Part shown: positions 24,169 to 60,384 of the stretch, piece after piece | Layout of the letters: the number at the start of each line of letters is the position of its first letter | Position numbering within the stretch: the first letter of the stretch is position 1 | NCBI GenBank assembly: GCA_900555015.1 | Contig: USJL01000002.1 | Location: 62,001-126,000 of the forward strand | Source: an uncultured Oscillospiraceae bacterium | GTDB lineage: Bacteria; Bacillota; Clostridia; Oscillospirales; Acutalibacteraceae | DNA length: 64,000 nt | Direction of reading: 5' to 3' | Notes under the pieces: model-generated | The model's input: only the letters and a program-made list of their open reading frames with translations | What the model was told of the DNA's origin: nothing | The model's database searches: none | Position numbers and translations under genes: made by a program

Positions 24169-24186
24169 TTACTTTTTAGCAATCAT
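24169..24186 (-). pseudogene. 3' end of the split SASP gene (codons 52-56 and stop)
   Basis: Minus strand: ATG ATT GCT AAA AAG TAA, that is M-I-A-K-K-stop. The ATG (24184-24186) is the triplet shared with 47142-47144, where the middle SASP piece ends in GTA-ATG. Joining at this triplet gives GGQMVNVMIAKK, a proper SASP C-terminus, in frame. The piece is too short to recognise alone; the call rests on the exact frame match, the adjoining terminator, and the recombinase gene ending 3 bases away. Confidence 0.8.
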
Positions 24187-24189
24187 AGC

Positions 24190-25863
24190 TTATTTCATAG
24201 ATTCTTCATAAGCCTTAATCATTTTCTTACTATTGCTACCTGCACGGCTCGTAAGATTTTGGAGGGTTTTAGTGACTGTTGTTCCGGCTTTTAGATGTAT
24301 CTCAAAGCGTGTTATTTCCTCGTCGGGATATACCGTAATATCGCTTATATATCGGTCAATAAATGCTCTGTCTATTTCCTCACCGTCAATGTGCTTTTCC
24401 GCCGCTTTCAGTATGGCTTTGATTTCGGCAAGCTCTTTTTTCATCTCTCGTTCGGTTTTTGATGTTTTGTTCAGGGCGTTTATTTTTTTCTCAATGTCCT
24501 TGATTTCGTTATCGCAGTCGGCAGTCATTCGTATGAATTCGCTGTCGTCCATTCTTCCGTCAGCGTTGTATTGTAATAACTTCGCTTTCATTTTTTGCCG
24601 TGTGATAAGTTCTTGATTCAGCCTGTTAAGCTCATCCTTGTTTTCGTTTGTGTCAAGGACTTCTGACACAAGCTTCAGCACACACGCCGAGAGTTCCTCA
24701 ATATGCTGTTGCCCCGATTTGAAAATATCTTCGATAATCGGCTTGATTTCACTTTCGTAAATCGCTCGGCTCGGACAGCTTGACGCACCGTGTTTTATCT
24801 TGCCCGAGCATACCCACTTTGAGATTTTCTCTCCGCCCTTGCTTACTGCGTCCTTGCGATAGTAGGGCATACCGCAGTGCGCACATATCAGTTTGCCTGT
24901 CAGCAGGTTTTGATGCACCGTCTTGTGCTGTGCCGTGATTACATCCTGGCTTCGCATATACAACACTTCGTTTGCCTTGTCCCACAATTCCTCGCTGACG
25001 ATTGCAGGTACTGTTTCACCCGTTTCATCTTTATACATAACCCATTCTTCCTCAGGCAAAAACTTTTGTTTTTTGGTGAACAGGTCAGTAATTCGCACCT
25101 TGTTTCCTGCATAGTAGCCTTTGTATTTCGGGTTGCGTATGATGTTGCTCATCGTTGAGTGAGAGAGCATTTTACCCTTAGAATTTCGTATTCCTTTTTG
25201 GTGAAAATGTTTTTCCATTTGCTTCATACTGAATTTTCCCGTGGCGTACATTTCAAACAGTTCTCGCACAAAGTCGGCTTGCGTTTCGTCAATCATCAGC
25301 TTGCCGTCTTTTTTGATGTAGCCGTACATATTGTTCGTGCCGAGTACAGTACCTTTTTTGATAGCCTGTTGATGACCGAACCGCACACGATTAGAGATTT
25401 TTCTCGACTCGTCTTGCGCCATAGATGACATAATCGTCAGCCTTAATTCGCTGTCCTCGTCAAGGGTGTTTATGTTGTCATTTTGAAAATACACAGCCAC
25501 TCCGCTTGATAAAAGTTCACGGGTAAAGCGAATACTGTCCAGCGTGTTACGGGCAAATCTTGACACCTCTTTGGTTACAATCAGGTCAAACATTCCTGCC
25601 TTTGCGTCCTCAATCATCTCGTTGAATCGCTCACGCTTTGCAGTCGATACGCCCGATATGCCCTCGTCAACATAGCCGTCAACATATTCCCAATTCGGAT
25701 TTTTCCTGATGAAATCGGTGTAATATGTTATTTGGTTATCAAGTGAATTTAACTGAACATTAAAATCCGTGCTGACACGAGCGTAAAATGTCACTCGCAA
25801 AGGCAGGTTCATAAAGTTAATATTTTCTTTTCTTATTCTCTCACGAGTTGAATATATATCCAT
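24190..25863 (-). CDS. Large serine recombinase of element A
   Basis: About 557 residues. The resolvase domain (about 24-170) has the nucleophile Ser31 in FYARVSTD and EVSRFARNT. A recombinase domain follows, then a zinc ribbon (CAHCGMPYYRKDAV...CSGKIKHGASSCPSR, about 325-370) and a C-terminal coiled-coil (about 400-500). The start at ATG 25863 (MDIYSTRERIRK) follows GGAAAGGAG; the in-frame TTG at 25881 lies within that site. The stop codon lies next to the element's left junction with the SASP tail. It catalyses integration, and excision with a directionality factor. Confidence 0.93.
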   Translation of the reverse strand: MDIYSTRERIRKENINFMNLPLRVTFYARVSTDFNVQLNSLDNQITYYTDFIRKNPNWEYVDGYVDEGISGVSTAKRERFNEMIEDAKAGMFDLIVTKEVSRFARNTLDSIRFTRELLSSGVAVYFQNDNINTLDEDSELRLTIMSSMAQDESRKISNRVRFGHQQAIKKGTVLGTNNMYGYIKKDGKLMIDETQADFVRELFEMYATGKFSMKQMEKHFHQKGIRNSKGKMLSHSTMSNIIRNPKYKGYYAGNKVRITDLFTKKQKFLPEEEWVMYKDETGETVPAIVSEELWDKANEVLYMRSQDVITAQHKTVHQNLLTGKLICAHCGMPYYRKDAVSKGGEKISKWVCSGKIKHGASSCPSRAIYESEIKPIIEDIFKSGQQHIEELSACVLKLVSEVLDTNENKDELNRLNQELITRQKMKAKLLQYNADGRMDDSEFIRMTADCDNEIKDIEKKINALNKTSKTEREMKKELAEIKAILKAAEKHIDGEEIDRAFIDRYISDITVYPDEEITRFEIHLKAGTTVTKTLQNLTSRAGSNSKKMIKAYEESMK

Positions 25864-25990
25864 ATTTTTACTCCTTTCCAAGCAGACAATATCACAAATA
25901 ATTTCTATTATCCAGCTTTATTTTACAGTATTTCACCCCTGCGTTCATTAGGGGATTGATACCTGTTTTGGTAATGTTTTACAGAGCTTT

Positions 25991-26230
25991 TCAGTTTATT
26001 TTTCCGTATCTGCGATTGACTTCCACGCTGATTTTTCCCATCAATTTGCGATAGGTTTTGTCGTCAATCGCATTTTGATTCAGCAGCGTATTTGCAAAAT
26101 GCTGCATCCAAAGCTCCGTGCTGATTCTCTCATCGGCAATGTTTTGTGTATTGATTTTCGGATCACTCCCGCTTGATTTTTCAATACTATTATTGCCTGA
26201 TGCTTTAGAATTTATTTCCTTTGCTGCCAT
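25991..26230 (-). CDS. Small element-backbone protein upstream of LSR A
   Basis: 79 residues. The N-terminus is polar and low in complexity (Asn/Ser). The C-terminal half (ISTELWMQHFANTLLNQNAIDDKTYRKLMGKI) looks like a SHOCT-like two-helix unit. The start sits in a hairpin, GTTGCC-TTAT-GGCAGC, which recurs before the corresponding small gene of element B (49222). It lies between the HTH genes and the recombinase, so it may influence recombination or its expression (inference). Confidence 0.6.
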   Translation of the reverse strand: MAAKEINSKASGNNSIEKSSGSDPKINTQNIADERISTELWMQHFANTLLNQNAIDDKTYRKLMGKISVEVNRRYGKIN

Positions 26231-26335
26231 AAGGCAACACGCTAACTATGATTTTATATCTGCCTCCTTTAATTAGATTTGCCTTTCGTTGTAAATTTGT
26301 ATTTCATATTAACCTCCTATTTTGCTCACAGGCTT

Positions 26336-26443
26336 TCATAAATCGCCTATCATAAATTCGTATGGCGAAAAGTTTTCATCAAAGATTTTGTTTGGCATAT
26401 AGTAAACCTTGCCGTCGGTTTTGTAGTTTTTGTTTGCGTGCAT
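26336..26443 (-). pseudogene. N-terminal fragment of an HTH_36-type protein
   Basis: 35 codons (MHANKNYKTDGKVYYMPNKI...SPYEFMIGDL) match the first residues of the intact HTH protein of element B (FFLSPNKIFDEGLKPREFIVYSYLL, 49814-50110) and end abruptly in TGA. It is either a truncated remnant or a short ORF left by a deletion. Confidence 0.65.
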
Positions 26444-26448
26444 AATTT

Positions 26449-26652
26449 TTATCCTTTCTTAATTTGTTTTTGAATCCACAACTTGAATTCATCTTTCGGT
26501 ACAACAATTCTTGTGCCGATTTTTATTTTTGGAAAACCTTTTTCATTGACATGCTCGTATGACCTTGTGCGAGATATTCCAAGCACCTTTGCAACCTGCG
26601 ACACCGATAACATCATCGGTAGCTCATCAAAACTTTTGTAGCTTTCTTTCAT
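26449..26652 (-). CDS. Excisionase-like helix-turn-helix protein (AlpA/MerR-like)
   Basis: 67 residues with a single winged helix-turn-helix (MLSVSQVAKVLGISRTRSYEHV, then GFPKIKIGTRIVVPKDEFKLWIQ), the fold of excisionases and AlpA regulators. ATG 26652 is chosen because CGAAAGGAGGCGG directly precedes it. Its position at the head of the recombinase operon makes it the best candidate directionality factor (RDF) for element A (inference). A regulator of the operon is the alternative. Confidence 0.75.
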   Translation of the reverse strand: MKESYKSFDELPMMLSVSQVAKVLGISRTRSYEHVNEKGFPKIKIGTRIVVPKDEFKLWIQKQIKKG

Positions 26653-26746
26653 TGTGCCGCCTCCTTTCGTATTATTCGAGAGATACTTTTTCAAAAAGAA
26701 AAAAGTATAAGTAAATTTGAAAACAAAAATTCACTTATAAAAAAGT

Positions 26747-26867
26747 CCCTCTACTATACGGAGAAAAATTGCGATTTTGTTCGGGTGTTTTTCATAATTC
26801 TTTACACCTTGTTTACATTTGATTTCACCATAGCAAAAAATACCCCTCTATAATACGGAGAAAAATT
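26747..26867. repeat. Pair of 24-bp direct repeats upstream of the element A HTH operon
   Basis: CCCTCTACTATACGGAGAAA (from 26747) and CCCTCTATAATACGGAGAAA (from 26844) differ at two positions over 24 bases and are 97 bases apart; similarity continues for about 20 bases. Each contains a TATA(A)TAC core. They may be tandem operators or promoters, or iteron-like sites. They lie in the 320-base gene-free gap between the HTH gene and the helicase fragment. Confidence 0.55.
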
Positions 26868-26976
26868 TAAGTTTTGTTGATGTGTTTTGAGAAAAAATTT
26901 TGACTTAGTACTAAAATTTACTTGCTTGTCAATTGCGATGTTGTTTGCAAAATAGAATTATGATATAATGATTATA

Positions 26977-27141
26977 TTAAGAGTTTTACTAACTCGTGCA
27001 AGGTCGGGTATGGTGATTTGCGTGCCGTATGGTAATGGCAATAAAACATCTACCGGCTTTGGGGAGGACAGCACACGGCTGCCGAAGTATTACAATGGAA
27101 CTTATGAATATTTGAAAAGTTTGGGAATTGAAGAAATTTGA
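26977..27141 (+). pseudogene. C-terminal fragment of a DUF2075/schlafen-type helicase
   Basis: One open frame reads LRVLLTRARSGMVICVPYG, then GFGEDSTRLPKYYNGTYEYL and ends IEEI-TGA. LLTRARSGMVIFVP-like sequence is the conserved C-terminal helicase motif VI of DUF2075 proteins. There is no upstream coding sequence, so it is a deletion remnant at a recombination joint within element A. Confidence 0.75.
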
Positions 27142-27177
27142 CGGTTGCTTAAAATTCCGAATTTGCAGAGGTGGATT

Positions 27178-27864
27178 ATGAAAATAACATACATTAACCA
27201 CAGTGGATTTTTGGTTGAAACCGAGGAATGCTATTATGTTTTTGATTATTACAAAGGCGAGATGCCGAGCCTTGATAAAAGCAAGGAAGTTGTCGTCTTT
27301 TGCAGCCATTTTCATCAAGATCATTTCAACCCGAAAATCTTTGAAATTCTTGATGATATGGGTATGAATTATCAGGCTGTTTTGGCGAAAGACATCAGCA
27401 AAAAGAAGTATCCTGCCGGTGTGAAAGTTACGACGGCTTATCACGATCAAACCTATATTCTTGACAACGGCACACAGGTTACTACGCTTCTTTCAACCGA
27501 CAGCGGTGTCGCTTTTATTGTCGAGACAAGCGAGGGCAAGATTTATCACGCGGGTGATTTGAATGATTGGCATTGGGAGGGGGAGACGGAAGCCGATAAC
27601 CGCCATATGGCCTCCATGTACCGTGCCGAGATTGATAAAATCAAGGACGCTCATTTTGATGCCGCATTCGTTCCCCTTGATCCAAGGCAGGAGGAACATT
27701 ATGCCGACGGTATGCTTTATTTTTTGAAATACGTCGATTGCAACGCCGTTTTTCCTATGCATTATTGGAACGAGCCAAGCGTGATTGATAGGTTTATCAC
27801 CGAATATCCGCAGTATAAATCACGAATAAAAAACACAGAATCAGCAAAAGGAGAAGAAATATGA
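27178..27864 (+). CDS. MBL-fold metal-dependent hydrolase
   Basis: About 228 residues. MKITYINHSGFLVETE opens the fold, CSHFHQDHFNP (about 40-50) supplies the HxHxDH ligands, and HAGDLNDWHW and FPMHYW the later ones. The ATG at 27178 is chosen because GAGGTGGAT precedes it. It overlaps the VOC gene by ATGA, so the two are translationally coupled. The family includes UlaG/YtkL-like hydrolases; the substrate is unknown. Confidence 0.8.
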   Translation: MKITYINHSGFLVETEECYYVFDYYKGEMPSLDKSKEVVVFCSHFHQDHFNPKIFEILDDMGMNYQAVLAKDISKKKYPAGVKVTTAYHDQTYILDNGTQVTTLLSTDSGVAFIVETSEGKIYHAGDLNDWHWEGETEADNRHMASMYRAEIDKIKDAHFDAAFVPLDPRQEEHYADGMLYFLKYVDCNAVFPMHYWNEPSVIDRFITEYPQYKSRIKNTESAKGEEI

Positions 27865-28217
27865 GCTTTAGAATGATTCACGAAAACTATAATGTTTCCG
27901 ATTTGGATAGGTCGATTAAATTTTATGGCGATGCGCTTGATTTGCACGAGGTCAGACGAAAAACGACCGACGATTTTATTATTGTTTATTTGAGCAATGA
28001 TTCAAGCGATTTTGAGCTTGAACTTACTTGGCTTAAAGAACATCCGCAGCCGTACGATTTGGGTGAATGTGAATTTCATTTAGCATTTAAGGCAGATGAT
28101 TTTGACTTGGCGCATAAAAAGCACGAAGAAATGGGCTGTATCTGTTTTGAAAATCCTGAAATGGGTATCTATTTCATCGAGGACCCGGACGGCTATTGGC
28201 TCGAAATTTTACCGTGA
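27861..28217 (+). CDS. VOC-family (glyoxalase-like) protein
   Basis: 118 residues: two beta-alpha-beta-beta-beta modules (HENYNVSDLDRSIKFYGDAL, EFHLAFKADDFDLAHKKHEE) ending YFIEDPDGYWLEILP, the typical metal-site C-terminus of lactoylglutathione lyase-like proteins. It overlaps the MBL gene by four bases; an MBL plus glyoxalase pairing suggests aldehyde detoxification (inference). A near-copy of its last 19 codons lies at 54742-54799 in element B. Confidence 0.8.
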   Translation: MSFRMIHENYNVSDLDRSIKFYGDALDLHEVRRKTTDDFIIVYLSNDSSDFELELTWLKEHPQPYDLGECEFHLAFKADDFDLAHKKHEEMGCICFENPEMGIYFIEDPDGYWLEILP

Positions 28218-28235
28218 TTAAGTTACACTATAATA

Positions 28236-28272
28236 AAAAGAGTTGAGAAACACAATTTCTCAACTCTTTTAT
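28236..28272 (+). terminator. Terminator after the MBL-VOC pair
   Basis: AAAGAGTTGAGAAA, loop, TTTCTCAACTCTTTT. Confidence 0.85.
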
Positions 28273-28274
28273 GT

Positions 28275-28405
28275 TTATGCAAGCAGTTCATTTAATTTTG
28301 AAACTATTTTTTCTTTTTTATCACTTCCTGTTGTGAACAACCTCATTAGTGGTAAGTCATACTTTGCGAAAATGCCGTCTTTTAAAATATCCCTTTGATA
28401 AGATT
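28275..28405 (-). pseudogene. C-terminal fragment of a DUF2726-type nuclease domain
   Basis: On the minus strand the frame reads SYQRDILKDGIFAKYDLPLM, RLFTTGSDKKEKIVSKLNEL, LA-stop. The R-x-x-TTGS-x-x-EKI pattern is the C-terminus of DUF2726-like proteins. No upstream part remains. The SF1 helicase of element B ends in a related domain. Confidence 0.6.
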
Positions 28406-28658
28406 ATACCAAGGTTTTAGGAATCATAATAAGAAACTTTGGAGTTTGAAGAGTGGCTTGAGAGTAGTTTTCCGAATAGAATCAAGAAAAACAAATATTT
28501 ATAATTAATCTTACGGAGCCGTTCGAGTAACAGCTCCGTTTTGTTTTGATTTTTTCTTGCTTTTCCCTTATAAATCCGCAATAATCATTGCTTTTAAGCG
28601 TTCTGCGTGATATAATAAACTTGTATAATTGTAACTATCTGAAAGCGAGGAAAATCTA
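28406..28658. other. Junction region before the defence cluster: ORF tail, terminator, promoter
   Basis: 28439-28506 holds an orphan frame tail (LEFEEWLESSFPNRIKKNKYL-stop) of unknown family. 28512-28546 is a terminator (ACGGAGC...AGCTCCGTTTTG). A TATAAT at about 28623 and GCGAGGAAAA before 28659 look like the promoter and ribosome site for the HTH gene. Otherwise nothing. Confidence 0.5.
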
Positions 28659-28847
28659 ATGGATTCTAACATCGAGCGCTGGTACTCAATGAAAGAAATA
28701 TGCGAATATCTTGGCGTCAGCCGTGATACCGTACTTGATTGGATAGAAAGAAGAAATATGCCCGCAGCAAAAATCGGACGCCTTTGGAAATTCAAAGTCA
28801 GCGAAATTGACGCTTGGATGAAATCCGGTATTGCAGCGGATAAATAA
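28659..28847 (+). CDS. Excisionase-family (HTH_17) DNA-binding protein heading the defence cluster
   Basis: 62 residues: YSMKEICEYLGVSRDTVLDW and KIGRLWKFKVSEIDAWM form one winged HTH of the excisionase/HTH_17 type. It is the first gene of a co-directional run through hamB at 40255, with short gaps throughout, so it is likely the island's regulator (inference). An element-A recombination factor is the alternative. Confidence 0.8.
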   Translation: MDSNIERWYSMKEICEYLGVSRDTVLDWIERRNMPAAKIGRLWKFKVSEIDAWMKSGIAADK

Positions 28848-28862
28848 TTTTAGGGGGCATAT

Positions 28863-29348
28863 ATGAGTTTTATTGAATCTTACAAGCATCTTGATAAAAT
28901 ATGCGGAGAAATGTTTGAAACTAAATATTGAGTATCCGCCTATATAGAGGAAATGCTAAACAATCCCCATGGTTCTTTTCTTGTCAGAGGATGGGAAAAT
29001 GATTTAAAACAACTAAAGCACTATCGTTGGATTAGAAATCAAATAGTACACGAACCCGATTGCTACGAAGAAACTATGTGCGAAGCCGGAGACGATGAAT
29101 GGCTTGATGATTTTTATGAAAGAATAATAAATCAAACTGATCCGCTTGCAATGTATTTTCAAGCAACAAAACCACATCCTGTTGCAAAATCCGCACAAAA
29201 TCATGAACCGGCTCAACTGCAATATACATATTCTAAACAGCCTAGCCAACCAAAACATAAATCAAAAAAGGTCGTAAGATGGATTGTGTTTTCAATTATC
29301 GTGGCTATTGTTCTACTGTACTTAGTACTTAAATACTTTATCAATTGA
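28863..29348 (+). pseudogene. Conserved tail-anchored protein interrupted by one in-frame TGA
   Basis: From ATG 28863 (after GGGGGC) the frame runs 22 codons (MSFIESYKHLDKICGEMFET, KY), meets TGA at 28929, and continues in frame as VSAYIEEMLNNPHGSFLVRG, with no shift. A purine-to-T or C-to-T change at one base would explain it. The body (about 35-75) contains a helical HEPN/DUF-like segment (WIRNQIVHEPDCYEE), and the last 22 residues form a transmembrane helix. Family not named. The TGA may be a true mutation or error; reinitiation at ATG 28953 is possible. Confidence 0.6.
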
Positions 29349-29364
29349 TTTTGGAGGTGCAAAT

Positions 29365-30447
29365 ATGCCGGATAAGAATTGGCAATTTGAACTTGAAGAA
29401 TATATAAAGCAAGGCGAACCCGACAAGGCTGAAAAAAGCGAAGCGTGGCAAACTGCCATCGGTTTGCAGGCTGTTGACGGGCTGAATACTTCTGACTATT
29501 TGTTAGACACCGCCAAAGAGCATATTGAAGGTAAAATCACCATTGACGAAGCTCAAAAGCGTATTCACAGTTACTATGAGCAGCGTACTGTACGCACCGA
29601 AACGGAAAATGAAACCAAAGAAGCGGACATTGTTTCGGCAAGAATTGCAAAGTTGTTGGGAGAAAAGGCGTTTCAATTTTCCCCTGCCGAGTGGCTTTCG
29701 ATTCATCGCAGATTGTTCGAGGGCGTGTTCGGTCACGCAGGACAAATCAGGCAGTATAATATCACAAAGAAAGAGTGGGTTCTGAACGGCGATACCGTTA
29801 CCTATGCGGATTGGAACAGTATTAAGGAAACTTTGGATTATGATTTTTCCACCGAAAAACAGTTTTCTTATGAGGGTTTGTCCGTAGATGAAGCTGTAAA
29901 GCATTTGGCAAAATTTGCTTCCGATATTTGGCAAATTCACCCGTTCAGCGAGGGAAACACCCGTGCTACTGCCGTATTTATGATAAAATATATGAAAACA
30001 TTCGGCTTTAGCGTAAATAACGATGCATTCGAGAAAAATTCTTGGTATTTTCGCAATGCGTTGGTTCGTGCTAATTATAATAACCTGCAAAAAGGCGTCC
30101 ATTCCACAACTAAGTTTTTGGAAATGTTCTTTTCAAATCTTTTGTTAGATACGCATTATGAACTGAAAAACAGATATATGCACATTGATTATGTGGACGA
30201 AAGCAATTTCCAAAGTATCAGCCAAAAAGTTTCAAAGTATCAATTTGATACTTTAGACTGCACTTTAGAGGAACTTGCAGTTTTAGAATTAGTGGCAAAG
30301 AACCCGACAATGAAACAGCAAGAACTTGTAGAAGCAACCGGAAAATCGATTGCAACCATAAAGCGAATTATGAAATCCCTGCAGGATAAAAACTATATCC
30401 GCCGAGGAAACGGAAAAAGATACGGTAAGTGGGAAGTTTTGGTTTGA
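29365..30447 (+). CDS. Fic-family AMP-transferase-like protein with C-terminal winged helix
   Basis: 360 residues. The Fic core holds HPFSEGNTR at 192-200, a full HxFx(D/E)GNxR motif, so AMP transfer to a protein hydroxyl is expected. Residues 46-70 (LLDTAKEHIEGKITIDEAQK) look like a VbhA-type inhibitory helix region, though I do not see a clean (S/T)xxxE(G/N) motif. Residues 290-360 are a winged helix (LVAKNPTMKQQELVEATGKS). Fic genes often occur inside R-M loci. GGAGGTGC precedes the ATG. Confidence 0.88.
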   Translation: MPDKNWQFELEEYIKQGEPDKAEKSEAWQTAIGLQAVDGLNTSDYLLDTAKEHIEGKITIDEAQKRIHSYYEQRTVRTETENETKEADIVSARIAKLLGEKAFQFSPAEWLSIHRRLFEGVFGHAGQIRQYNITKKEWVLNGDTVTYADWNSIKETLDYDFSTEKQFSYEGLSVDEAVKHLAKFASDIWQIHPFSEGNTRATAVFMIKYMKTFGFSVNNDAFEKNSWYFRNALVRANYNNLQKGVHSTTKFLEMFFSNLLLDTHYELKNRYMHIDYVDESNFQSISQKVSKYQFDTLDCTLEELAVLELVAKNPTMKQQELVEATGKSIATIKRIMKSLQDKNYIRRGNGKRYGKWEVLV

Positions 30448-30471
30448 AATATAAGAATTGAGGTATTAATT

Positions 30472-31377
30472 ATGAACTTAAAGACACTATCTTCGGAAGG
30501 TAAAATAGCATATTTAATTAAGCCGATATTAAAAGTGTTACAAGAAGCCGGCGGTCAATTAGAGCGCTCCGAAATAAAGGAACGCATTTCCGACTTGGAT
30601 GACCAGATTGCAGAATATGCCGAGACAGAAAAGAAATCGAAGAAAACGGGTAATGTATATAAAGAATTTAATTTCAAATTCAATTTTGCTATAAAAGATT
30701 TGTATTTTGCTGAATTATTAACATTTACAAACTCTTCTCCGATTACCTTGACCGAAAAAGGATTATATCTTGATATTGACAGCTTGAATGTTGAAAAAGA
30801 TATTATCGAAGTTTCGGCAAAATATTGGAACGAATTAAGCGAAAAGAACAGAAAAAACAAAGAATCCGATTCAACAGAAAACGAGGAAGAACCGGAAGCG
30901 GAAGAAAAAATAAAGGACGATTTTAAGGAAAAACTTCTTGTCGCCATTTCTAAAATGTCACCTAAAAAATTCGAGGCTTTTTCAAGAGCTTTGCTTAATC
31001 GTATGGGTGTTGAATTTACCGAAAAAGGTGTTCAAATCAGCAACGACGGCGGAATAGACGGTTACGGCTACCATACAGATGCAAACGATTTCAGAACAAC
31101 CAGAGTTGTCATTCAATGCAAGAGATATAATGTTGCTCCGGTAAGAGAGCCCGAAATTAATCAATTTTTAGGTGCAATGAATAAGTATCAAGCCGATTAC
31201 GGAGTGTTTATCACAAACGGAAGATTTACAAATTCCGCAAGACAGGCGGCACGCGAAGGCTCACCCATTACATTGATTGATGGCAATGAATTAGTAAGAT
31301 TAGTTATTAGATATGAACTGTACATTACACCTGTTAAAACATATGTGTTGGATGAGTTTTACAATACGGAGGAATAG
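30472..31377 (+). CDS. Mrr-type restriction endonuclease
   Basis: 301 residues. The N-terminal Mrr_N winged helix (about 1-95: AYLIKPILKVLQEAGGQLER) is followed by an acidic linker and an Mrr_cat PD-(D/E)xK domain from about 150. DGGIDGYGY and VVIQCKRY provide the D...QxK active site. Mrr enzymes cut DNA carrying foreign methylation. It is followed directly by the Abi_C gene. Confidence 0.88.
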   Translation: MNLKTLSSEGKIAYLIKPILKVLQEAGGQLERSEIKERISDLDDQIAEYAETEKKSKKTGNVYKEFNFKFNFAIKDLYFAELLTFTNSSPITLTEKGLYLDIDSLNVEKDIIEVSAKYWNELSEKNRKNKESDSTENEEEPEAEEKIKDDFKEKLLVAISKMSPKKFEAFSRALLNRMGVEFTEKGVQISNDGGIDGYGYHTDANDFRTTRVVIQCKRYNVAPVREPEINQFLGAMNKYQADYGVFITNGRFTNSARQAAREGSPITLIDGNELVRLVIRYELYITPVKTYVLDEFYNTEE

Positions 31378-31379
31378 TT

Positions 31380-32240
31380 TTGAGTGTACTTTCATTTATC
31401 GAAAAGCAAACGATTTGCCGATTGTTTGGAATAAGTGATGGGTTTATATTTAAATACTGGAGCGACAAGGGAGCCCACAACAAAAGCACAACTAAAGAGT
31501 TGATTTATGACTCTTGTGGGATAAACATTTTTGAAGATGCGGGTTACAAGGGCTTATCACAACAAAAATGTATACAGAAGATTTGGGATGAGTGTAGTCC
31601 GCAAATCATTGCAAAACTCTTAAAAACGTTATCAGATTATTTCTGCTTTAAGATGGGAACAGATTGGTGGTCTGATGAGGATAATTATGATTATCAACAA
31701 ATTCAACATATTATAGAGCGATTGCAAACTCTCCAAACAGTTGAACTTCCAAAAGAAGAGAACATTAAAAATCTCAAACTTCTTTTAGAAGATATTGAAG
31801 AAAATATTAAAAACGACAAGCCAGAATTGGCTGTTGACCGACTTCATACATTTGCATCAGAATATTTGCGCAATTTGTGCCATACTCACTCAATTGAAAC
31901 AACCGACTCTAAAGGTAACGAGTATCCGCTTCATTCACTCGCCGGAATGCTCAAAAAATGGTATGTTGATAATGCTTATTTTGATTCCGAATTTGCAGTT
32001 GTAGCTATTCAAAATTCCATTAACTTGTTTGATAAATTTAATGGTATACGAAATGACAATAGTGCTGCACATCCTAATGATTTGCTTTCAAAAGCAGAGG
32101 CAGAATATGCTGTTAGAATCATTGCGAATACATTAACTTTTATTGATAAATGTGAAAAAAGTAAAATTAAAAAAGTTCAAACGCTTCCTTGGGGTGGCGG
32201 CATATTATACATAGTGCCCGACGAAGAATTACCTTTCTAA
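31380..32240 (+). CDS. Abortive infection (Abi_C) family protein
   Basis: 286 residues from a TTG start at 31380, with GGAGGA seven bases upstream. The C-terminal third (about 165-265) matches Abi_C: HTFASEYLRNLCHTH, LHSLAGMLKKWY, GIRNDNSAAHPND, EAEYAVRIIANT. The RNDNSAAH stretch gives an R-x(4)-x-H HEPN-like motif. The N-terminal half is helical and unassigned. Expected role: killing or dormancy of infected cells; the target is unknown. Confidence 0.82.
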   Translation: MSVLSFIEKQTICRLFGISDGFIFKYWSDKGAHNKSTTKELIYDSCGINIFEDAGYKGLSQQKCIQKIWDECSPQIIAKLLKTLSDYFCFKMGTDWWSDEDNYDYQQIQHIIERLQTLQTVELPKEENIKNLKLLLEDIEENIKNDKPELAVDRLHTFASEYLRNLCHTHSIETTDSKGNEYPLHSLAGMLKKWYVDNAYFDSEFAVVAIQNSINLFDKFNGIRNDNSAAHPNDLLSKAEAEYAVRIIANTLTFIDKCEKSKIKKVQTLPWGGGILYIVPDEELPF

Positions 32241-32260
32241 TTGTGCTGGAGGATAAAGAA

Positions 32261-32485
32261 TATGGCAGGAAGCACAAGTTTAGGAGCTGATAGAGTTGTA
32301 AAGGAAGATGGGCTATATACTCAGCTTACAGATGAGGTCTAATAAATTATATAGACCAAAATTATTACTATGAGGGATTTGCAACTTTTAATATGGAGAA
32401 TTTGTAAAATTCCAAAGTGTCATTATAGAGTTTCAAAGTGCCAATTTGGCACTTTGGATAAGCAAAAACAAAAGAAAAGTTGATA
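32261..32485 (+). pseudogene. Small R-M-associated ORF broken by two frameshifts
   Basis: Three frames join into one small protein: MAGSTSLGADRVVKEDGLYT to LTDEV, then INYIDQNYYYEGFATFNMEN, then KFQSVIIEFQSANLALWISK and KNKRKVDN. An apparent 2-base excess near 32339 and one missing G near 32399 cause the breaks. The protein would have been about 75 residues. It lies before the DUF6680 and mod genes. Family unnamed. Confidence 0.65.
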
Positions 32486-32498
32486 ACAGGAGGATAAA

Positions 32499-32996: not shown

Positions 32997-32997
32997 A

Positions 32998-51373: not shown

Positions 51374-51413
51374 AATTCAAGCCGAGAGGGGCGTCCTCTC
51401 GGCTTGAGTTTTT
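51374..51413 (+). terminator. Terminator of the riboswitch operon
   Basis: CAAGCCGAGAGG, loop, CCTCTCGGCTTG and TTTTTT. Almost the same hairpin recurs at 60144. Confidence 0.9.
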
Positions 51414-51454
51414 TGTGTAACTGAATTTATTAACTGCATACAAGTTAATTATTG

Positions 51455-53116: not shown

Positions 53117-53134
53117 AATAAATTATATATCCTT

Positions 53135-54631
53135 TCAGTCTTTTTGTCTGTTTTCAGCATAGGGTGATTCCCCTGACTCTGCCAAGCCGTTTCTGCGAGC
53201 GTTAAGGTCACTTTCCACAAGTGCTCTTTTTTCCTTTGTATAGTTAACAAACAGAAGCGGAATTATAAACAAAACGCTTGCAACGGCAGGTGTAAGAACT
53301 ACAAGAGGCCAAATCCAGCTATCAAAGGCGTCTGTTTGAGTGCCTAAATAATTTGCCGCATTATCAATAGCCTTATAGCCGAGAAGATGAAGTGCAAGGG
53401 TTGCAAGTCCCGATGTTATGCCGCTTGAAATCTTTGTAAAGGAGGTTTGCATAGAAAAGGTAATGCCCTCTGTTCTCTTGCCTGTTTTCCACTCCATATA
53501 GTCAATACTGTCGCAAAAGATTGATGTTTGCGCTATTGACGACGCACCCGACGGAATACTGCCTATGCCGATTATTATCATTGAAATCCACAGCCTTTTT
53601 CCCTCAAAGCCAACGAAAAATGCAATTGCTCTTGCAACGATATTAAACACCTGAATAAGTATAAGAACATTAACATATCCGCCAAGTCTTTTTTTCATCC
53701 AATCGGCAAACAACATTCCGATAAAGCTCGGCAAGCCGGTAATGATAAAGTAAATAGTTGTAAGTCCCAGCGCGCCGATAATTCCGTTTCCGAGAAAATC
53801 CGACGGAATTTCATACTTAAAGAAATATGTAACAAGCGAAATGCCAAATCCAAGCGAGCCGAAAAGATTTGAAAGCGTTACAAGCAAAAGCATTTTGTTT
53901 TTGAACAAAAGCAGAAAGCTTTCACGCAGAGTTTCCTGCTGCTCGTCCTTGTTGACGGCAATTCTTTCCCGGGCATATGAGCAACGGTAGCTGAGCATTG
54001 AGCCGCCTAAGCCGAATATAATCGCAAACACCAAGGTAACAAGCGACATACTCATTCCCTTTGCATTGGCAATCATTTCAAGTGCCATAGGAATAACGGT
54101 ACTGAAGGCACCGTAAACCATACTGCCGATAGTTCTTGACCACTGAACAAATCTGTCTCTCTCGGAGGAATTAGGCGATACTGCGGCGGTAATTCCCCAC
54201 ACGGAAACATCCTGAACGGTATATGCCAAATCCCAACAGATATACATTATGATGAAATACGATACCCGAAGCCAAAGCAAATTCTCGTTTGTGCTGAACA
54301 CAAGAAACAGCAAAACGGTAAACACACCGACGGGAAGCGGTGTGTATTTCAAAAACGGTCGCAGCTTTTCACCGTTTTTAAAGGTATGGCGGTCAATAAA
54401 TGAGCCTACAATAGGGTCGTTAATACCGTCCCACACCTTCATAACAATAAGCAAAACAGAAACAGTAAGTGCAGGGAAAAGAGCAATATCCGTCATAAAA
54501 TATGTAAAAAACGATCCGCCAATCAGCGAATAAACAAGATTTTGCCCCGAAAGACCTGCAAGAAAATTTACAAGCTCTTTTTTAGAAACATACTTTTTTT
54601 CGGCATTTTTTTCAGATATACAATCTGCCAT
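53135..54631 (-). CDS. GPH-family symporter paired with alpha-glucosidase
   Basis: 498 residues, about 12 helices. WDGINDPIVGSFIDRHTFKN after helix 2 and DSIDYMEWKTGKRTEGI late in the protein are GPH hallmarks. It probably imports an oligosaccharide such as isomaltose for the adjacent GH13 enzyme (inference from gene order). GAGGTTTTAGCT precedes its ATG. A different subgroup from the GPH protein at 1430. Confidence 0.87.
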   Translation of the reverse strand: MADCISEKNAEKKYVSKKELVNFLAGLSGQNLVYSLIGGSFFTYFMTDIALFPALTVSVLLIVMKVWDGINDPIVGSFIDRHTFKNGEKLRPFLKYTPLPVGVFTVLLFLVFSTNENLLWLRVSYFIIMYICWDLAYTVQDVSVWGITAAVSPNSSERDRFVQWSRTIGSMVYGAFSTVIPMALEMIANAKGMSMSLVTLVFAIIFGLGGSMLSYRCSYARERIAVNKDEQQETLRESFLLLFKNKMLLLVTLSNLFGSLGFGISLVTYFFKYEIPSDFLGNGIIGALGLTTIYFIITGLPSFIGMLFADWMKKRLGGYVNVLILIQVFNIVARAIAFFVGFEGKRLWISMIIIGIGSIPSGASSIAQTSIFCDSIDYMEWKTGKRTEGITFSMQTSFTKISSGITSGLATLALHLLGYKAIDNAANYLGTQTDAFDSWIWPLVVLTPAVASVLFIIPLLFVNYTKEKRALVESDLNARRNGLAESGESPYAENRQKD

Positions 54632-54741
54632 AGCTAAAACCTCCGTACAATCTTTATTACTATTATACTATAATCATCTTTAAAAATAAAGTTTTTTTAG
54701 ATATTTTTCACAAATAATAAAACCGATGTGAAAATCACGAA

Positions 54742-54799
54742 ATGGGAATTTATTTCATCGAAGATCCCGACGGCTATTGGCTCGAAATTTTATCGTAAT
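54742..54799 (+). pseudogene. C-terminal VOC fragment
   Basis: MGIYFIEDPDGYWLEILS-stop, nearly identical in DNA to the end of the VOC gene at 27861-28217 in element A. No upstream part. It marks past recombination between related element segments. Confidence 0.8.
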
Positions 54800-54827
54800 T
54801 CTTGATATATATTCTCAAATAATTAAC

Positions 54828-54867
54828 TCCCTTGTAGCACAAAAATACACTACAAAGGAGTTTTAAT
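54828..54867. terminator. Hairpin after the VOC fragment
   Basis: AACTCCCTTGTAG and CTACAAAGGAGTTTT form a long stem with an AT loop and T run. Confidence 0.7.
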
Positions 54868-54945
54868 ATCCGGACTAAATATTTATTTTAATGTTAAGGT
54901 TGGCAGATAACTAAAATATCGTGACAACTTTCAAAGCTATAATAG

Positions 54946-55347
54946 TCAGTATTTCTTACTAACAATCAAATAGCAAATGTAATACAAAACAAGCATTACA
55001 CAAATTATGCCGGCTGCTATTTGCATATAGGTCACTTTTGACATAATTAGGCAAATAATTGTAATCGCCGCACAAATCATTATAAATGAATACGCAGCCC
55101 ATGACCACGCCTTCATAGATATGAAACGATTTCTTTCATCGTTTGTCTTGGTATCAACCATTTCCTTGTACTCGCTATTAGTTTTGTATTTTATAGCTCT
55201 TATTAATTGAACCACACCAACACCTAACAAGCCACCACCAAAGCCAGCAAACAAGCTATTCACTTCGTTCATAAACACTAAAACAATTAAAACTATTCCA
55301 AGTATTATATATAGTGTATTGATAATTATATTTTTATATTCTTTCAT
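54946..55347 (-). CDS. Four-helix membrane protein partner of XRE regulator
   Basis: 133 residues: hydrophobic helices at about 8-27, 30-50, 82-102 and 107-128, and a conserved-looking loop (KEMVDTKTNDERNRFISMKA) between helices 2 and 3. This layout resembles the DUF2178/DUF6442-like proteins that follow XRE genes in Firmicutes. Its start overlaps the XRE stop. Confidence 0.7.
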   Translation of the reverse strand: MKEYKNIIINTLYIILGIVLIVLVFMNEVNSLFAGFGGGLLGVGVVQLIRAIKYKTNSEYKEMVDTKTNDERNRFISMKAWSWAAYSFIMICAAITIICLIMSKVTYMQIAAGIICVMLVLYYICYLIVSKKY

Positions 55348-55547
55348 TATAATTCCTCCTCAAAGCAGAACAAATCTTCAATTGATAAATGAAAATATTT
55401 TGCAATTTTATACGCAAGCAAAATTGATGGATTATATTTTCCATTTTCTAATGAAATAATAGTTTGTCTTGAAACGCCCATAGCACTTGCAAGTTCTTCT
55501 TGGCTTATGCTATTAGCACTTCGTAATTCTTTGATTTTGTTTTTCAA
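55347..55547 (-). CDS. XRE-family regulator (short)
   Basis: 66 residues, one HTH_XRE (KIKELRSANSISQEELASAM, GVSRQTIISLENGKYNPSIL). The TTG start at 55547 is chosen because AGGAG lies nine bases before it; the GTG at 55556 overlaps that site. Such short XRE proteins repress themselves and the following membrane gene. Confidence 0.82.
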   Translation of the reverse strand: MKNKIKELRSANSISQEELASAMGVSRQTIISLENGKYNPSILLAYKIAKYFHLSIEDLFCFEEEL

Positions 55548-55756
55548 AAAAATCACTCCTAATTATTATTTATTCTTCGAAGAAAATGTAAAGCGTCCTT
55601 TACAATCACAATATAGCATATAAATCCACAAATGTCAAGCATACTTTACATTTTTTGTTTACAAATGTTGTCGTGATACCAAAATTATCTGCCAACTTTG
55701 TTTGCTAATGTTATATAAAAATGCATTTGAAATATTAATCGTGAATTGATAAACAA

Positions 55757-55796
55757 TAAAACCGAGAGCGACTGAATCACTCTCGGTTATTTTTTG
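55757..55796 (-). terminator. Terminator after the ferredoxin gene
   Basis: AACCGAGAGTGA...CGCTCTCGGTT on the minus strand followed by TTATTG; the + side also has TTTTTT. Confidence 0.75.
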
Positions 55797-55809
55797 ATTG
55801 TCCCTTAAT

Positions 55810-56499
55810 CTACGATAATATTTTTCCGTCGGTTGAGATTGTTACAACCTGCCACGGAATGAATTTTCCACTGTTTTGAAGTGCTGTTTTAACTGCGTGT
55901 TCAATACCTCCGCAGCAAGGCACCTCCATTCTTACAACTGTTACGTTTTTGATATTATTATTTGCAATAATTGCAGTTAATTTGTCTGCATAATCAACAT
56001 CATCAAGCTTTGGGCAACCTATTAAGGTAATCTTGTTTTTGATGAAATCGTTGTGGAAATTGCCGTAGGCATAAGCGGAGCAATCAGCAGCAACGAGGAG
56101 GTTTGCACCGTCAAAATACGGAGCATTTACAGGCACAAGCTTAATCTGCACAGGCCATTGTGAAAGCTGACTTGATACCGAAATATCGGCATTATCCACT
56201 TTCTTTTCGTGATTTATACTCATTGAGCGTGAACCCGGACAGCCTGAATGTGCGTGTTGCTTTGCTTTTTGACTTGCTTTAACCGCCGCCTCGTCATAAG
56301 CCGGAGCCTCTCGCATTTCAAAGGAAATTGCATCAACAGGACAGGCGGGCAGGCAATCTCCCAAGCCATCGCAATAGTCCTCTCTTGTGAGAACGGCTTT
56401 GCCATCTATCATACCTATTGCACCCTCGTGGCAGGCAGATACACATGCACCGCAGCCATTACATTTTTCTTTATCTATCTTAATGATTTTTCTAATCAT
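55810..56499 (-). CDS. 4Fe-4S ferredoxin-domain protein
   Basis: About 229 residues from ATG 56499 (GGAAG upstream). Two 4Fe-4S motifs: CNGCGACVSACHEGA (about 13-27) and a second CDGLGDCLPACPVDA (about 43-57), the second with a CxxxxCxxxC variant. The C-terminal 130 residues end with EVPCCGGIEHAVKTAL, a Cys-Cys-Gly motif, and contain a conserved ADCSAYAYGNFH segment. Family seen in anaerobes as an iron-sulphur oxidoreductase-like protein; partner unknown. Confidence 0.82.
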   Translation of the reverse strand: MIRKIIKIDKEKCNGCGACVSACHEGAIGMIDGKAVLTREDYCDGLGDCLPACPVDAISFEMREAPAYDEAAVKASQKAKQHAHSGCPGSRSMSINHEKKVDNADISVSSQLSQWPVQIKLVPVNAPYFDGANLLVAADCSAYAYGNFHNDFIKNKITLIGCPKLDDVDYADKLTAIIANNNIKNVTVVRMEVPCCGGIEHAVKTALQNSGKFIPWQVVTISTDGKILS

Positions 56500-56665
56500 A
56501 GGTATCTTCCTTTCATAATTTAGTGACCTCATTATACTATAAATCGTACTAAAATTCCACAGTTTTTCTATAAAAAACACGAGGTATGTTATGGAAAGAA
56601 AGCAACATAAAATAAGTATTTTGAAGCTAATAAATGCTTACAAAAAAGTAAAATTAATGAATAAA

Positions 56666-56788
56666 TCACTCAATTATTTCGCTTGCAGTTGCGTAAAATC
56701 TAATGCCGTTACTATACGCCTCAACAGTTATATATAAGTTATCATTTTTAATTTTCAGTATATCATTTTCCTGCTTAATATTGTTCAT
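56666..56788 (-). CDS. Small 40-residue ORF
   Basis: MNNIKQENDILKIKNDNLYI then TVEAYSNGIRFYATASEIIE. GAGGTAG precedes the ATG. Divergent from the SF1 helicase gene, with the palindromic operators between. Family unknown; could be an antitoxin-like or regulatory peptide. Confidence 0.4.
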   Translation of the reverse strand: MNNIKQENDILKIKNDNLYITVEAYSNGIRFYATASEIIE

Positions 56789-56814
56789 TTTACTACCTCG
56801 ATGCTCATTTCATT

Positions 56815-56957
56815 AGTGTAAACTTTCAATCTTTACACTATTGTATATTACATATAATTGCTTGTCAATTTATAATATAAGATTTGGTATTTAATTATTC
56901 AAACGATGTAATCTTATATTGAAAAGTGTAATATTACACATTGTAATCTAATATAGA
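56815..56957. promoter_or_regulatory. Palindromic operator cluster upstream of the helicase-nuclease
   Basis: AGTGTAAA (56815) pairs with TTTACACT (56832-56839). GTGTAATATTACAC at 56926-56939 is a perfect palindrome. It is flanked by two direct 16-mers, TGTAATCTTATATTGA (56907) and TGTAATCTAATATAGA (56942). All share a TGTAA/TTACA core, so one regulator likely binds repeatedly. Confidence 0.65.
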
Positions 56958-57042
56958 GTTAGATACTTGATTTATTATTATATTTAATGTAAACTTTAAT
57001 TGGAATAATATGTAAAAAATCTATTTTGGTGGTGAGAGAGTT

Positions 57043-60000
57043 ATGAACAAAGTTTCAAGAGATATTTTTAAAGCCATTCATGAAGGCAAATGGATTGCAA
57101 TAGAATACAGAAATCAGCAAGGAAATACCACCAATTACTGGATAGGGATTAAAAATATTGAACCCTACTACAAGAAACTAATTGTCGATGGACTTAATGT
57201 TGCAACATCACAAATGGCAGAACTTAATTTGTTTTTTGACTCTATAGTTAACACAAATCTAATAGACGGATCGTATTATCCTATAAACAAAAAGTTACTT
57301 GCCGATATAGAAGAACATTCATCAAGATATACTTTTATCTTTCATAATGTTACAAATCTAAAATTACTTGATTATTACAGCGAATGCAATAAGCTTGACA
57401 GTACTCCGTACAGGAAAGAATACAAACTAATTGAAGAGCTTGATATTGATGTTATAGGAGACGGTGATTATCACTTAAACGAAAAACAGTTTGAAAAAAT
57501 TGTAAAAACCTATAACATGAATGCCAAGAATTCAGGCAAAAATAAGATACCACGAGTAGTATCTTTGTGTATGAATTTATGCAGTATTCATACCAAAAAG
57601 GGACTTTATGTTCTTGCATATAAAAAGTTACTTTTCGATGTAAAAAATCATACTTTAACACAAGACGATGAAGTTACTATTTGCAGAGAATTTACAGTTG
57701 ATGGAGTTAAAATCAGTGCTCATTATTTCCTTGATGCTGATGAAATCCAATTACTTGACAATTACGAGGAAAATGCAGAGCTGATAAAGGATTTGATTAC
57801 AAAAAACAATCCTGAATACCGTGGCGTAGATGATATGCCGTATGTTATGGCACTTTCCAGAGACTTTACAATTAATCTTGATACGGAATATGAGGCTATT
57901 TTGGATATGTATGAAAATAACGAAGTTACATATCCCATCAAAGCATTTTTCGGAGATTTAACGGCAAAGCCGAGAAGAATTAAGGATTATCCGCTTGCAC
58001 TGTATAATGACAAGGTAAATCTCGATCAATTACTTGCAATTCACAATGGCTTGAAATATCCTGTACTTTATGTTCAAGGGCCTCCTGGAAGCGGTAAAAC
58101 AAATACAATATTGAATACCGTTGTAACTGCATTTTTTAATAATAAGAGTGTTCTTATATCATCATATAATAATCACCCGATTGATGAAATATATGATAAG
58201 CTTTCTAACTTAAAATACAATGGTAAAACCATTCCGTTTCCTATAATACGACTTGGAAACGGCGACAAGGTAAAAGAAGCAATAAAGCAAATTAGAAAAT
58301 TATATGAGCAAACTCATAATATGAAGGTGTTTGATGCATCGCTTTCAAAAAAGAAAAATGATGAGGAACACAGAACAAAGGCTCTTAGCAATTTACTTCA
58401 TCGATATGAAGAAAAGCTTGATATGAGTGAGCGAAGAGAGATGATTAAAACAATGCTTTCTTCTTCAAACAACTTGACTTTTCTTACGAATTTGCAGGGT
58501 GAACAGCTTAATAAAGTTAATAATGAACTTAAAGAAATCGGCAATATTACAGATGACGATGTTAAGCCATTAATCTCACAGGATAGATACGAACTTCTTA
58601 AATACCTTAATTTTACATCTGCAAAGTTCATTAAGCATATATCAGAGCCGAAATATGAAGAACTGGCAGACATTATTTTTAACAAAAATATTGATGAAGC
58701 CGCAAAGGATTTTAATGAATACATTTCTAATGATGAAAATTTCCAGAAGTTTATTAGAATTTTTCCTGTTGTTGCCACAACAAATATATCGGCACACAAA
58801 TTGGGAGAGCCAAAACAGTATTTTGATATGGTAATAATGGACGAGGCAAGTCAATGTAATACTGCTGTTGCACTTGTACCTATTTTGCGTGGTAAACAGT
58901 TAATGCTCGTGGGCGATCCACAACAGCTAAAGCCGGTCATTTTGTTAGATGAAAAAAATAATTGTATTCTAAAAAAACGATATAATGTTACAGATGAATA
59001 TGATTATAGAAATAAATCTGTTTATCAAACCTTTCTTTCAGCGGATGCTGTCAGTGATGAGGTTTTGCTCAGTTTCCATTATCGCTGCCATCCTAAAATT
59101 ATCGAGTTTAATAATAAAAAATATTATAATAACAAACTTAATGTTAAGTCTTCTTCTAAAGAGGAACATCCCCTCGAATTCATTGATTGCAACAGTGACA
59201 ATGTAATGATAAAAAACACTAATGAAAGTGAAGCAAGGGAGATTGTTCATTATGTAAAAACGCATCCTGATAAAACGATTGCTGTAATTACACCTTTTGT
59301 TAATCAGCGAAATAAAATTCAAGAAGAGCTTAACCAAAACGGAATTACCAATGTTGAGTGTGGAACTGTTCATGCTTTTCAGGGAGACGAAAAACAGGAA
59401 ATTATTTTTTCTCTCGCATTATCAAGCAAAACAGGTGAAAAAACATATAACTGGCTTAAGAATAATAAAGAGCTTATAAATGTAGCAACCTCAAGAGCAC
59501 AAGAAAAGCTTGTTATAACAGGTGATAAAAATCAGCTTAATCGACTTCATAAACCGGGTGAAGATGATGATTTGTTTGAACTTTGTAACTATGTTCGTTC
59601 AAACGGAAGAACAACTGTAACACAACGCGAACCCGAATCTCGTGCACTTGGTATAAAACCTTACAGCACAGAAACAGAAACTGTATTTCTTGAAACGCTG
59701 AATCATGCAATAAATGCGACGATGATAACAAGGTCAAGATATGTTGTTAAAAAAGAGGTGCCTATCGCACAAGTGTTTTCTTCAACTGATGAAGTAAACG
59801 ATTTGTTCTATACAGGGCGATTTGACTACATAGTTTATGAACGAGAGGGAAATGCACTTTTGCCTGTGTTTGCTATTGAACTTGACGGTAATGAGCATAC
59901 TAATGACGGCAAAGTTATTGAGAGGGATAAGAAAAAACAGGAAATTTGCGATAAACACAATTTTCAACTTATTCGTGTGCCAAATAACTACGCTAGAAGA

Positions 60001-60054
60001 TATAATTATGTAAAAGACATTTTATCAACCTTCTTTGAAAATGCAAGAAAATAA
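57043..60054 (+). CDS. SF1 (Dna2/NAM7-like) helicase fused to DUF2726-type nuclease
   Basis: 1003 residues. N-terminal AIHEGKWIAIEYRNQQGNTT to PYYKKLIVDG resembles a WYL-like beta domain. Walker A GPPGSGKT at about 346-353, DEAS at about 600, GDPQQL at about 624, CGTVHAFQGDEKQE and NVATSRAQEKLVITGD (motifs V-VI). C-terminal DUF2726/VSR-like nuclease: FAIELDGNEHTNDG then IERDKKKQEICDKHNF. Such helicase-nuclease fusions are typical stand-alone defence proteins; no named system matched. Single gene behind its own operators. Confidence 0.82.
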   Translation: MNKVSRDIFKAIHEGKWIAIEYRNQQGNTTNYWIGIKNIEPYYKKLIVDGLNVATSQMAELNLFFDSIVNTNLIDGSYYPINKKLLADIEEHSSRYTFIFHNVTNLKLLDYYSECNKLDSTPYRKEYKLIEELDIDVIGDGDYHLNEKQFEKIVKTYNMNAKNSGKNKIPRVVSLCMNLCSIHTKKGLYVLAYKKLLFDVKNHTLTQDDEVTICREFTVDGVKISAHYFLDADEIQLLDNYEENAELIKDLITKNNPEYRGVDDMPYVMALSRDFTINLDTEYEAILDMYENNEVTYPIKAFFGDLTAKPRRIKDYPLALYNDKVNLDQLLAIHNGLKYPVLYVQGPPGSGKTNTILNTVVTAFFNNKSVLISSYNNHPIDEIYDKLSNLKYNGKTIPFPIIRLGNGDKVKEAIKQIRKLYEQTHNMKVFDASLSKKKNDEEHRTKALSNLLHRYEEKLDMSERREMIKTMLSSSNNLTFLTNLQGEQLNKVNNELKEIGNITDDDVKPLISQDRYELLKYLNFTSAKFIKHISEPKYEELADIIFNKNIDEAAKDFNEYISNDENFQKFIRIFPVVATTNISAHKLGEPKQYFDMVIMDEASQCNTAVALVPILRGKQLMLVGDPQQLKPVILLDEKNNCILKKRYNVTDEYDYRNKSVYQTFLSADAVSDEVLLSFHYRCHPKIIEFNNKKYYNNKLNVKSSSKEEHPLEFIDCNSDNVMIKNTNESEAREIVHYVKTHPDKTIAVITPFVNQRNKIQEELNQNGITNVECGTVHAFQGDEKQEIIFSLALSSKTGEKTYNWLKNNKELINVATSRAQEKLVITGDKNQLNRLHKPGEDDDLFELCNYVRSNGRTTVTQREPESRALGIKPYSTETETVFLETLNHAINATMITRSRYVVKKEVPIAQVFSSTDEVNDLFYTGRFDYIVYEREGNALLPVFAIELDGNEHTNDGKVIERDKKKQEICDKHNFQLIRVPNNYARRYNYVKDILSTFFENARK

Positions 60055-60143
60055 AAAGCTGTGGTTCAACTGATACTAATTGATATCAATATGTATCAGT
60101 TTATGATAAAATGAGTGTAGTAATTGCTTTTGAAAAAGTAAAA

Positions 60144-60183
60144 AATCGAGCCGAGAGGGGTGTCCTCTCGGCTCAAATTTTTG
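60144..60183 (+). terminator. Terminator of the helicase-nuclease gene
   Basis: GAGCCGAGAGG, loop, CCTCTCGGCTC, then AAATTTTTG; near-copy of 51374. Confidence 0.85.
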
Positions 60184-60306
60184 CGGATATGTAGTGCAAT
60201 TTTCGTTAATTTTATGTTTTTAATGTAAATAGGCGCCCACTATTCTGTTTTTTCGAGTCCCGAAAGTGGCTTAAATAGGGCGTTTTGAAATTTTTTAATG
60301 CAAAAA

Positions 60307-60319
60307 AACACCAACCTCT
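60307..60319 (+). repeat. Element B attachment core, right copy
   Basis: AACACCAACCTCT, identical to 47220-47232. Confidence 0.85.
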
Positions 60320-60384
60320 GCGGCAGCTTCCATCTTAAATCTGTTAAGAGCTTCTTTAGCTTCAGGTACTGTGTTTTTAGCCAT
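60307..60384 (-). pseudogene. 5' piece of the split SASP gene (codons 1-26)
   Basis: From ATG 60384 (AGAGGTGTATTTGTA upstream): MAKNTVPEAKEALNRFKMEA, AAEVGV, then element B sequence (FLH-stop at 60295). An alpha/beta-type SASP N-terminus with the EAA-EVGV block that precedes the GPR protease site region. Joined to 47219 and 24183 it gives a complete 56-residue SASP. SASPs coat and protect spore DNA. Confidence 0.88.

Follow-up and report, generated by a model that had tools for sequence, protein, structure and literature searches.

In the skin (sigK), SPbeta (spsM) and gin (gerE) systems, a sporulation gene is interrupted by an element carrying a large serine recombinase (LSR), and the two flanks of the gene are precisely rejoined, as presented in the relevant parts of the published accounts (PMC5595907, PMC8270828, PMC5025042). 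A comparable arrangement was analysed here in a 64,000-nucleotide stretch of contig USJL01000002.1 (the window), from an uncultured Oscillospiraceae bacterium that is likely a gut bacterium. As read from its sequence, two LSR elements interrupt one alpha/beta small acid-soluble spore protein (SASP) gene, element B at codon 23 and element A at codon 50, with recombinases LSR-B and LSR-A. Compared with skin, SPbeta and gin as those accounts present them, the target here is a SASP gene, the LSR gene crosses the junction and has its ending swapped with that of the target, and two elements occupy one gene. Excision in sporulation, a feature of skin, SPbeta and gin, would be conjectural for the elements in the window. 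The gin element is described as non-phage and as carrying restriction-modification genes, and element A also carries such genes.

For the exchange at element A, the nearest mechanism appears to be that of mycobacteriophage BPs, for which the pertinent part of the report describes an attachment site (attP) inside a phage open reading frame (ORF) near its 3′ end and the removal of 33 residues on integration (PMC4557955). In that description the BPs ORF encodes a repressor with a proven ssrA-like tag, whereas the element A ORF encodes a serine recombinase, and the element A tail, unlike that of BPs, appears to be passed in frame to a host protein (PMC4557955). An attP inside an element ORF near the 3′ end is likewise what the paired ends and the native-tail relatives indicate for element A. 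In myxophage Mx8, attP lies within the integrase gene and integration changes the integrase C-terminus, the enzyme being a tyrosine recombinase; we know of no case there in which the enzyme and a spore protein are reciprocally fused in frame. A narrow search of titles and abstract openings in open-licence PMC articles, with subscription journals mostly outside it, found none dealing with a SASP gene interrupted by LSR insertion, or with an attP located within an LSR gene.

Probable exchange of C-termini at the element A junction

The attP of element A very probably lies within the 3′ end of the element's own LSR gene, with integration exchanging the C-termini of recombinase and spore protein in frame. 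The last 12 codons of the LSR-A ORF are SASP codons 50-61, and the SASP fragment runs on after codon 49 into a tail that would be the native C-terminus of LSR-A (Table 1). In the window, the SASP start (the first 22 codons) is separated from this tail-bearing fragment by element B. An earlier note on this DNA had described a split SASP gene and overlooked that, on our reading, the SASP 3′ end is at the same time the LSR-A 3′ end, and that an LSR-like tail of 33 codons now ends the SASP fragment.

The dinucleotide AA is the common stretch in all 18 genomes for which both ends are available, the window included. In these paired ends, the codon after GGQMV starts with AA on the SASP side and the matching codon on the LSR side also starts with AA; at the junction of the off-target relatives P0003, P0007 and P0113 the residue is Lys or Asn, both encoded by AAN codons. 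The inferred attP halves carry near-inverted arms, of CGTACGGG and CCCGTACG type, coding R-T-G-H and P-V-R (by eye). The tail is 33 codons long in 17 of the 18 paired genomes and 35 in the remaining one. Its distance correlates with LSR body distance (r 0.45, p 0.001), and the corresponding values are r -0.06 (p 0.65) for tail against SASP and r -0.24 (p 0.95) for LSR body against SASP. The ratio of nonsynonymous to synonymous polymorphism (pN/pS), computed on codons 8-33 of the 17 tails of 33 codons, is 0.61 in the tail frame and 1.12 and 1.42 in the other frames.

Tails of this kind also occur in place on recombinases. The LSR at locus L081, on a 100-kb viral contig, is 53% identical to LSR-A and has a tail of the same kind as its own C-terminus; genes nearby match phage head protease, dUTPase and nucleotide kinase families, and comparison of 10 neighbours with PHROGs gave a function or category for 5, the remainder having one match of unknown function or none. 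A search with the last 63 residues of this LSR returned three proteins (P0121-P0123), all bearing that tail. The reciprocal, integrated state is seen in L024, a complete small element in which SASP plus tail occupies 9989-10249 and the LSR (15390-17063) has the SASP C-terminus as its own end. Chance fusion was rejected on the native-type tails on phage contigs, the divergence of the tail with the LSR, and the frame-specific constraint.

In the proposed mechanism, a crossover at AA inside the LSR ORF would join the LSR codons to the SASP end and SASP to the LSR end, and excision would reverse both exchanges. The C-terminus of the recombinase would differ between its free and its integrated state, which may tie recombinase activity or stability to the state of the element, and the host's often single alpha/beta SASP gene would keep a foreign C-terminus until excision. 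Several observations weigh against an attP inside the LSR gene. Neither an excised circle nor a native-tail LSR-A-type gene was seen for the window's own element, and none was present among the relatives listed, though clustering at 90% may hide some; native tails are known from relatives at most 53% identical. Inverted arrangements occur (L162, L202, L207), as do other targets (sigK-like, LysR-type and unknown). The predicted structure of the tail is of low confidence (strands with a predicted local distance difference test score of ~30-40), and in some of the 18 pairs the two ends come from separate contigs.

The rejoined spore gene and the recurrence of its interruption

Joining the flanks in silico at the AA core of element A and the GA core of element B gave an uninterrupted 61-residue SASP, of which 59 residues are the same in the intact gene L001. 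The in-frame rejoining claimed in the earlier note thus holds, and the joined gene that it suggested seeking in relatives is found intact, in the same sequence type, in L001 and others, although the product has 61 residues and not 56. Two of the three pieces it proposed (60384-60307 and 47219-47142) are readable as SASP codons on the minus strand, whereas the third, "IAKK" at 24183-24169, falls past the SASP stop. Intact genes among the 80 SASP loci examined (kept from at least 451 relatives) end in GGQMVKKMI.xYExxMK or a close variant, and the true ending in the window is KKMIKAYEESMK plus stop (24228-24190). The A junction, previously put after codon 52, falls at the AA of codon Lys50 (47150-47149 and 24228-24227). 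The proposed presence of two different LSR elements, each with its LSR beside a junction and on the minus strand like SASP, was confirmed, and the proposed sizes of ~23 kb and 13.1 kb agree with the lengths between cores in Table 1.

Of 250 genomes of one family, 197 had a PF00269 match, a single one in 179 and more in 18, individual matches being tallied by eye from a listing with genome completeness figures absent. For 32 of the 197, even the strongest match fell short of 1e-25 (by eye), as for truncated copies. Among 26 chosen genomes, 22 had a SASP match, and the listed copy in LSR carriers mostly stops at about profile position 49-54. A switch to the tail after GGQMV was seen in 15 of the 80 SASP loci; L018 and L056 are interrupted by contig ends.

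The SASP C-terminus ends 115 of 120 LSR-A relatives among the matches listed (at least 8000 candidates), a list biased in that the query itself ends in the SASP C-terminus. The exceptions are P0003, P0005 (a fragment), P0007, P0011 and P0113. In P0003, an LSR 95% identical to LSR-A, the reading frame continues into a LysR substrate-binding domain, which marks a secondary target gene. Three samples are less biased. Among 22 genomes picked by SASP type, 11 held matches, at 14 places in all; the 9 closest have the SASP ending and the 5 distant ones lack it. In the 250 genomes of the family, 18 had an LSR-A match, 14 of them ending in SASP and 4 not. A wider sample of 394 genomes of the order had a match in 44, at 46 places, and 30 places were read: 20 end in SASP, 2 (L202, L207) adjoin an inverted SASP half, 6 are sigK-like and 2 are other, three of the 30 repeating earlier genomes (G017, G169, G236). 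Among the 25 phage records listed of 324, MT837325.1 alone is more than 36% identical; its LSR is 98% identical to LSR-A, and the record is the integrated form, ending in SASP. The matches listed in a plasmid search are at most 36% identical.

The opposite fusion was followed through relatives of the SASP-tail chimera L051. The SASP-tail frame is open in all 120 among the matches listed (at least 8000 candidates), a list that selects intact frames. These 120 carry 99 distinct tails, all of 33 residues, and the residue after GGQMV is Asn in 119. The same tail recurs with as many as 6 SASP parts, and a single SASP part is joined to as many as 13 tails, the pattern expected of many separate integrations. 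Some database proteins named alpha/beta SASP or recombinase would accordingly end in pieces of one another. A frameshifted SASP copy with an LSR-type tail lies at L154:1236-1384 in G014, which also has an intact chimera.

A related LSR clade lies in sigK-like genes, forward or inverted (L113-L115, L216, L217, L219-L222); the sigK-like identity was confirmed by profile for L216, L219, L220 and L221 and assigned by eye for the others. In a midpoint-rooted tree of 41 rows, the sigK rows group together (100/99); 4 changes are required for the SASP rows, among which the two native-tail phage rows fall.

Element B, double occupancy and the contents of the elements

The junction of element B falls at the GA of codon Glu23 (60318-60317 and 47231-47230); the earlier note was right that element B splits the gene and misplaced the cut, after codon 26. 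The GA core rests mainly on G056, which separates host from element bases, and on G236. The 5′-side continuation GGTTGGTGTT at this junction is probably element DNA, because G056 and the window share GAGGTTGGTGTTTTTTTGC there and the host side of G056 reads GAAGTGGGC.

Relatives of LSR-B were found in 7 of the 250 genomes of the family, at 54-92% identity, and all seven adjoin SASP codon 23, six forward and one (L162) beside an inverted SASP 5′ half; a scan of viral contigs found none. The LSRs of L162, L202 and L207 adjoin the inverted SASP 5′ half and not the usual 3′ half. LSRs with DUF4368 are commonly multi-targeting, according to the part of the source that treats them (PMC10083194). LSR-B shares DUF4368 with that clade, but its branch behaves as site-specific, with seven of seven at one SASP codon, which rules out random multi-targeting insertion within the family sampled, and LSR-B looks SASP-dedicated. 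SASP pieces lie around an LSR-B relative on one contig in G043 (~23 kb apart) and in G094 (~9.5 kb apart, with more SASP fragments nearby); G185 also has, elsewhere, a SASP match that is nearly complete. That element B is rearranged host DNA had been considered, since a ferredoxin-like gene in L068 matches at 93%; this was rejected because no further synteny of the flanks was found there and the SASP pieces of G043 and G094 flank an LSR-B relative.

The double occupancy of one SASP gene claimed earlier stands for the window as assembled, and G236 carries both recombinase kinds in the same order: on one contig follow an LSR-B relative (54%), SASP from codon 23 plus tail, and an LSR-A relative (54%) ending in the SASP C-terminus. 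The SASP 5′ part of G236 is on another contig, so contiguity is shown for the near side of its element B and not for the far end. By eye, G056, a carrier of element B, and MT837325.1 have nearly identical SASP 3′ flanks; one lineage carries either element. P0149 reads as the window's SASP with the element A tail and without element B; it has an odd start and may be an assembly chimera. The recurrence of the element and SASP anatomy in relatives is more than chance. Extra fragments of SASP codons 1-26, ending at the same Glu/Lys codon region, occur at L145:1843-1926 and L146:465-542 and continue alike on the right-hand side (CAATC...), as though the codon-23 site also served an element of a third type.

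LSR-A and LSR-B each have Resolvase, Recombinase and Zn-ribbon domains in a single protein, and the LSR-A relatives listed mostly start 6 residues later (557 aa) than the ORF in Table 1. The small ORF upstream of LSR-A is, at a guess, a candidate directionality factor; similar-looking small ORFs precede the LSR in L024 and L145 (by eye). The defence-type cargo of element A includes a HamA-like and HamB-like pair (Hachiman-type) at 37267-40255. Within element B, a S-adenosylmethionine (SAM) riboswitch match lies on the plus strand at 50387-50471, with no obvious methionine gene downstream, and the end of the element holds a 1003-aa helicase with DUF2726 (57043-60054) that has weak to moderate matches to the defence models MkoA and MkoC.

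Table 1. Positions of the SASP pieces, the two elements and their genes in the window
Feature	Position	Strand	Remarks
SASP 5′ piece	60317..60384	-	codons 1-22 and GA of codon 23
SASP middle piece	47149..47231	-	codon 23 to AA of codon 50
SASP 3′ piece	24190..24228	-	codons 50-61 and stop; coincides with the final 12 codons plus stop of the LSR-A ORF
Element A	24229..47148		22,922 bp between AA cores
LSR-A ORF	24190..25881	-	563 aa from TTG
33-codon tail and stop	47049..47150	-	in frame after SASP codon 49; inferred native C-terminus of LSR-A
Small ORF upstream of LSR-A	25991..26230	-	candidate directionality factor
Defence-type cargo of element A	29365..40255	+	Fic protein, Mrr, type III methyltransferase, helicase/restriction subunit, HamA/HamB-like pair
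Mor-family gene	46541..46834	-	beside the SASP-tail end of element A
Element B	47232..60316		13,087 bp between GA cores
LSR-B	47284..48945	-	553 aa, has DUF4368

What the exchange may do

One tentative possibility is that the recombinase acts as a sensor of its own integration state: the free enzyme would carry a destabilising or reaction-tuning 33-residue tail, and the integrated one the SASP ending, the tail being handed to SASP. The same idea would have another, independent family of recombinases evolve towards this 61-codon gene, at a site 27 codons away. If true, one crossover would reset two proteins, linking element stability to spore DNA protection. The tail might, as a guess, be a degron: 113 of the 120 listed chimeras have tails ending [LI]A[VI], reminiscent of ssrA tags, and just 7 of 18 deeper tails end in AV or AI. 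Six host-type tags of transfer-messenger RNA (tmRNA) were found in 8 relatives, all six ending AA.

Developmental excision of the skin type is conceivable but doubtful; the elements would leave during sporulation, SASP would be restored, and the swapped tails would be a by-product. The flanks do rejoin to an intact SASP, and the nearest other LSR clade lies in sigK-like genes, sigK being the target of the skin element in the parts of the accounts that concern it (PMC5025042, PMC5595907). However, SASP acts in the forespore, where the chromosome is inherited, so that excision would cost the element its place, and the known cases sigK and spsM act in the mother cell as described there. The gene sspC is SigG-controlled, according to the passage concerned (PMC8270828).

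Hosts might instead keep the chimera as a working spore protein with a recombinase-derived ending and tolerate the element for that, which we consider unlikely. The open and conserved frame in all 120 listed chimeras would fit such a protein, although that list favours intact frames by its selection. The single PF00269 match in 179 of 197 genomes, often the chimera where an LSR is present, and the naming of P0168 as an alpha/beta SASP in a database point the same way. On the other hand, the tail diverges with the LSR and not with SASP, and in the window element B parts the SASP start from the chimera. The replaced SASP part, moreover, aligns with the end of SspC in 2z3x, which we take to be part of a DNA-binding helix.

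Ordinary insertions, with attP immediately beyond the LSR gene and the two in-frame fusions arising as accidental read-through into adjoining DNA, are highly improbable: a matching frame at both joints has a chance expectation of 1/3 and the LSR of sigK-type relatives appears by eye to read into the target out of frame, but the tail resembles the C-terminus of LSRs on phage-type contigs, is near-constant in length, is constrained in its frame and diverges with the LSR.

If element A does integrate through an attP inside its own recombinase gene, a single recombination event would alter two proteins at once, each taking over the ending of the other in frame, and would do so in many genomes of a gut-associated order in which the target gene is mostly single-copy per genome. 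Two questions would thereby become testable: whether an integrase signals through its C-terminus that it is integrated or free, and whether skin-like elements can target a gene active in the forespore, on the inherited chromosome.

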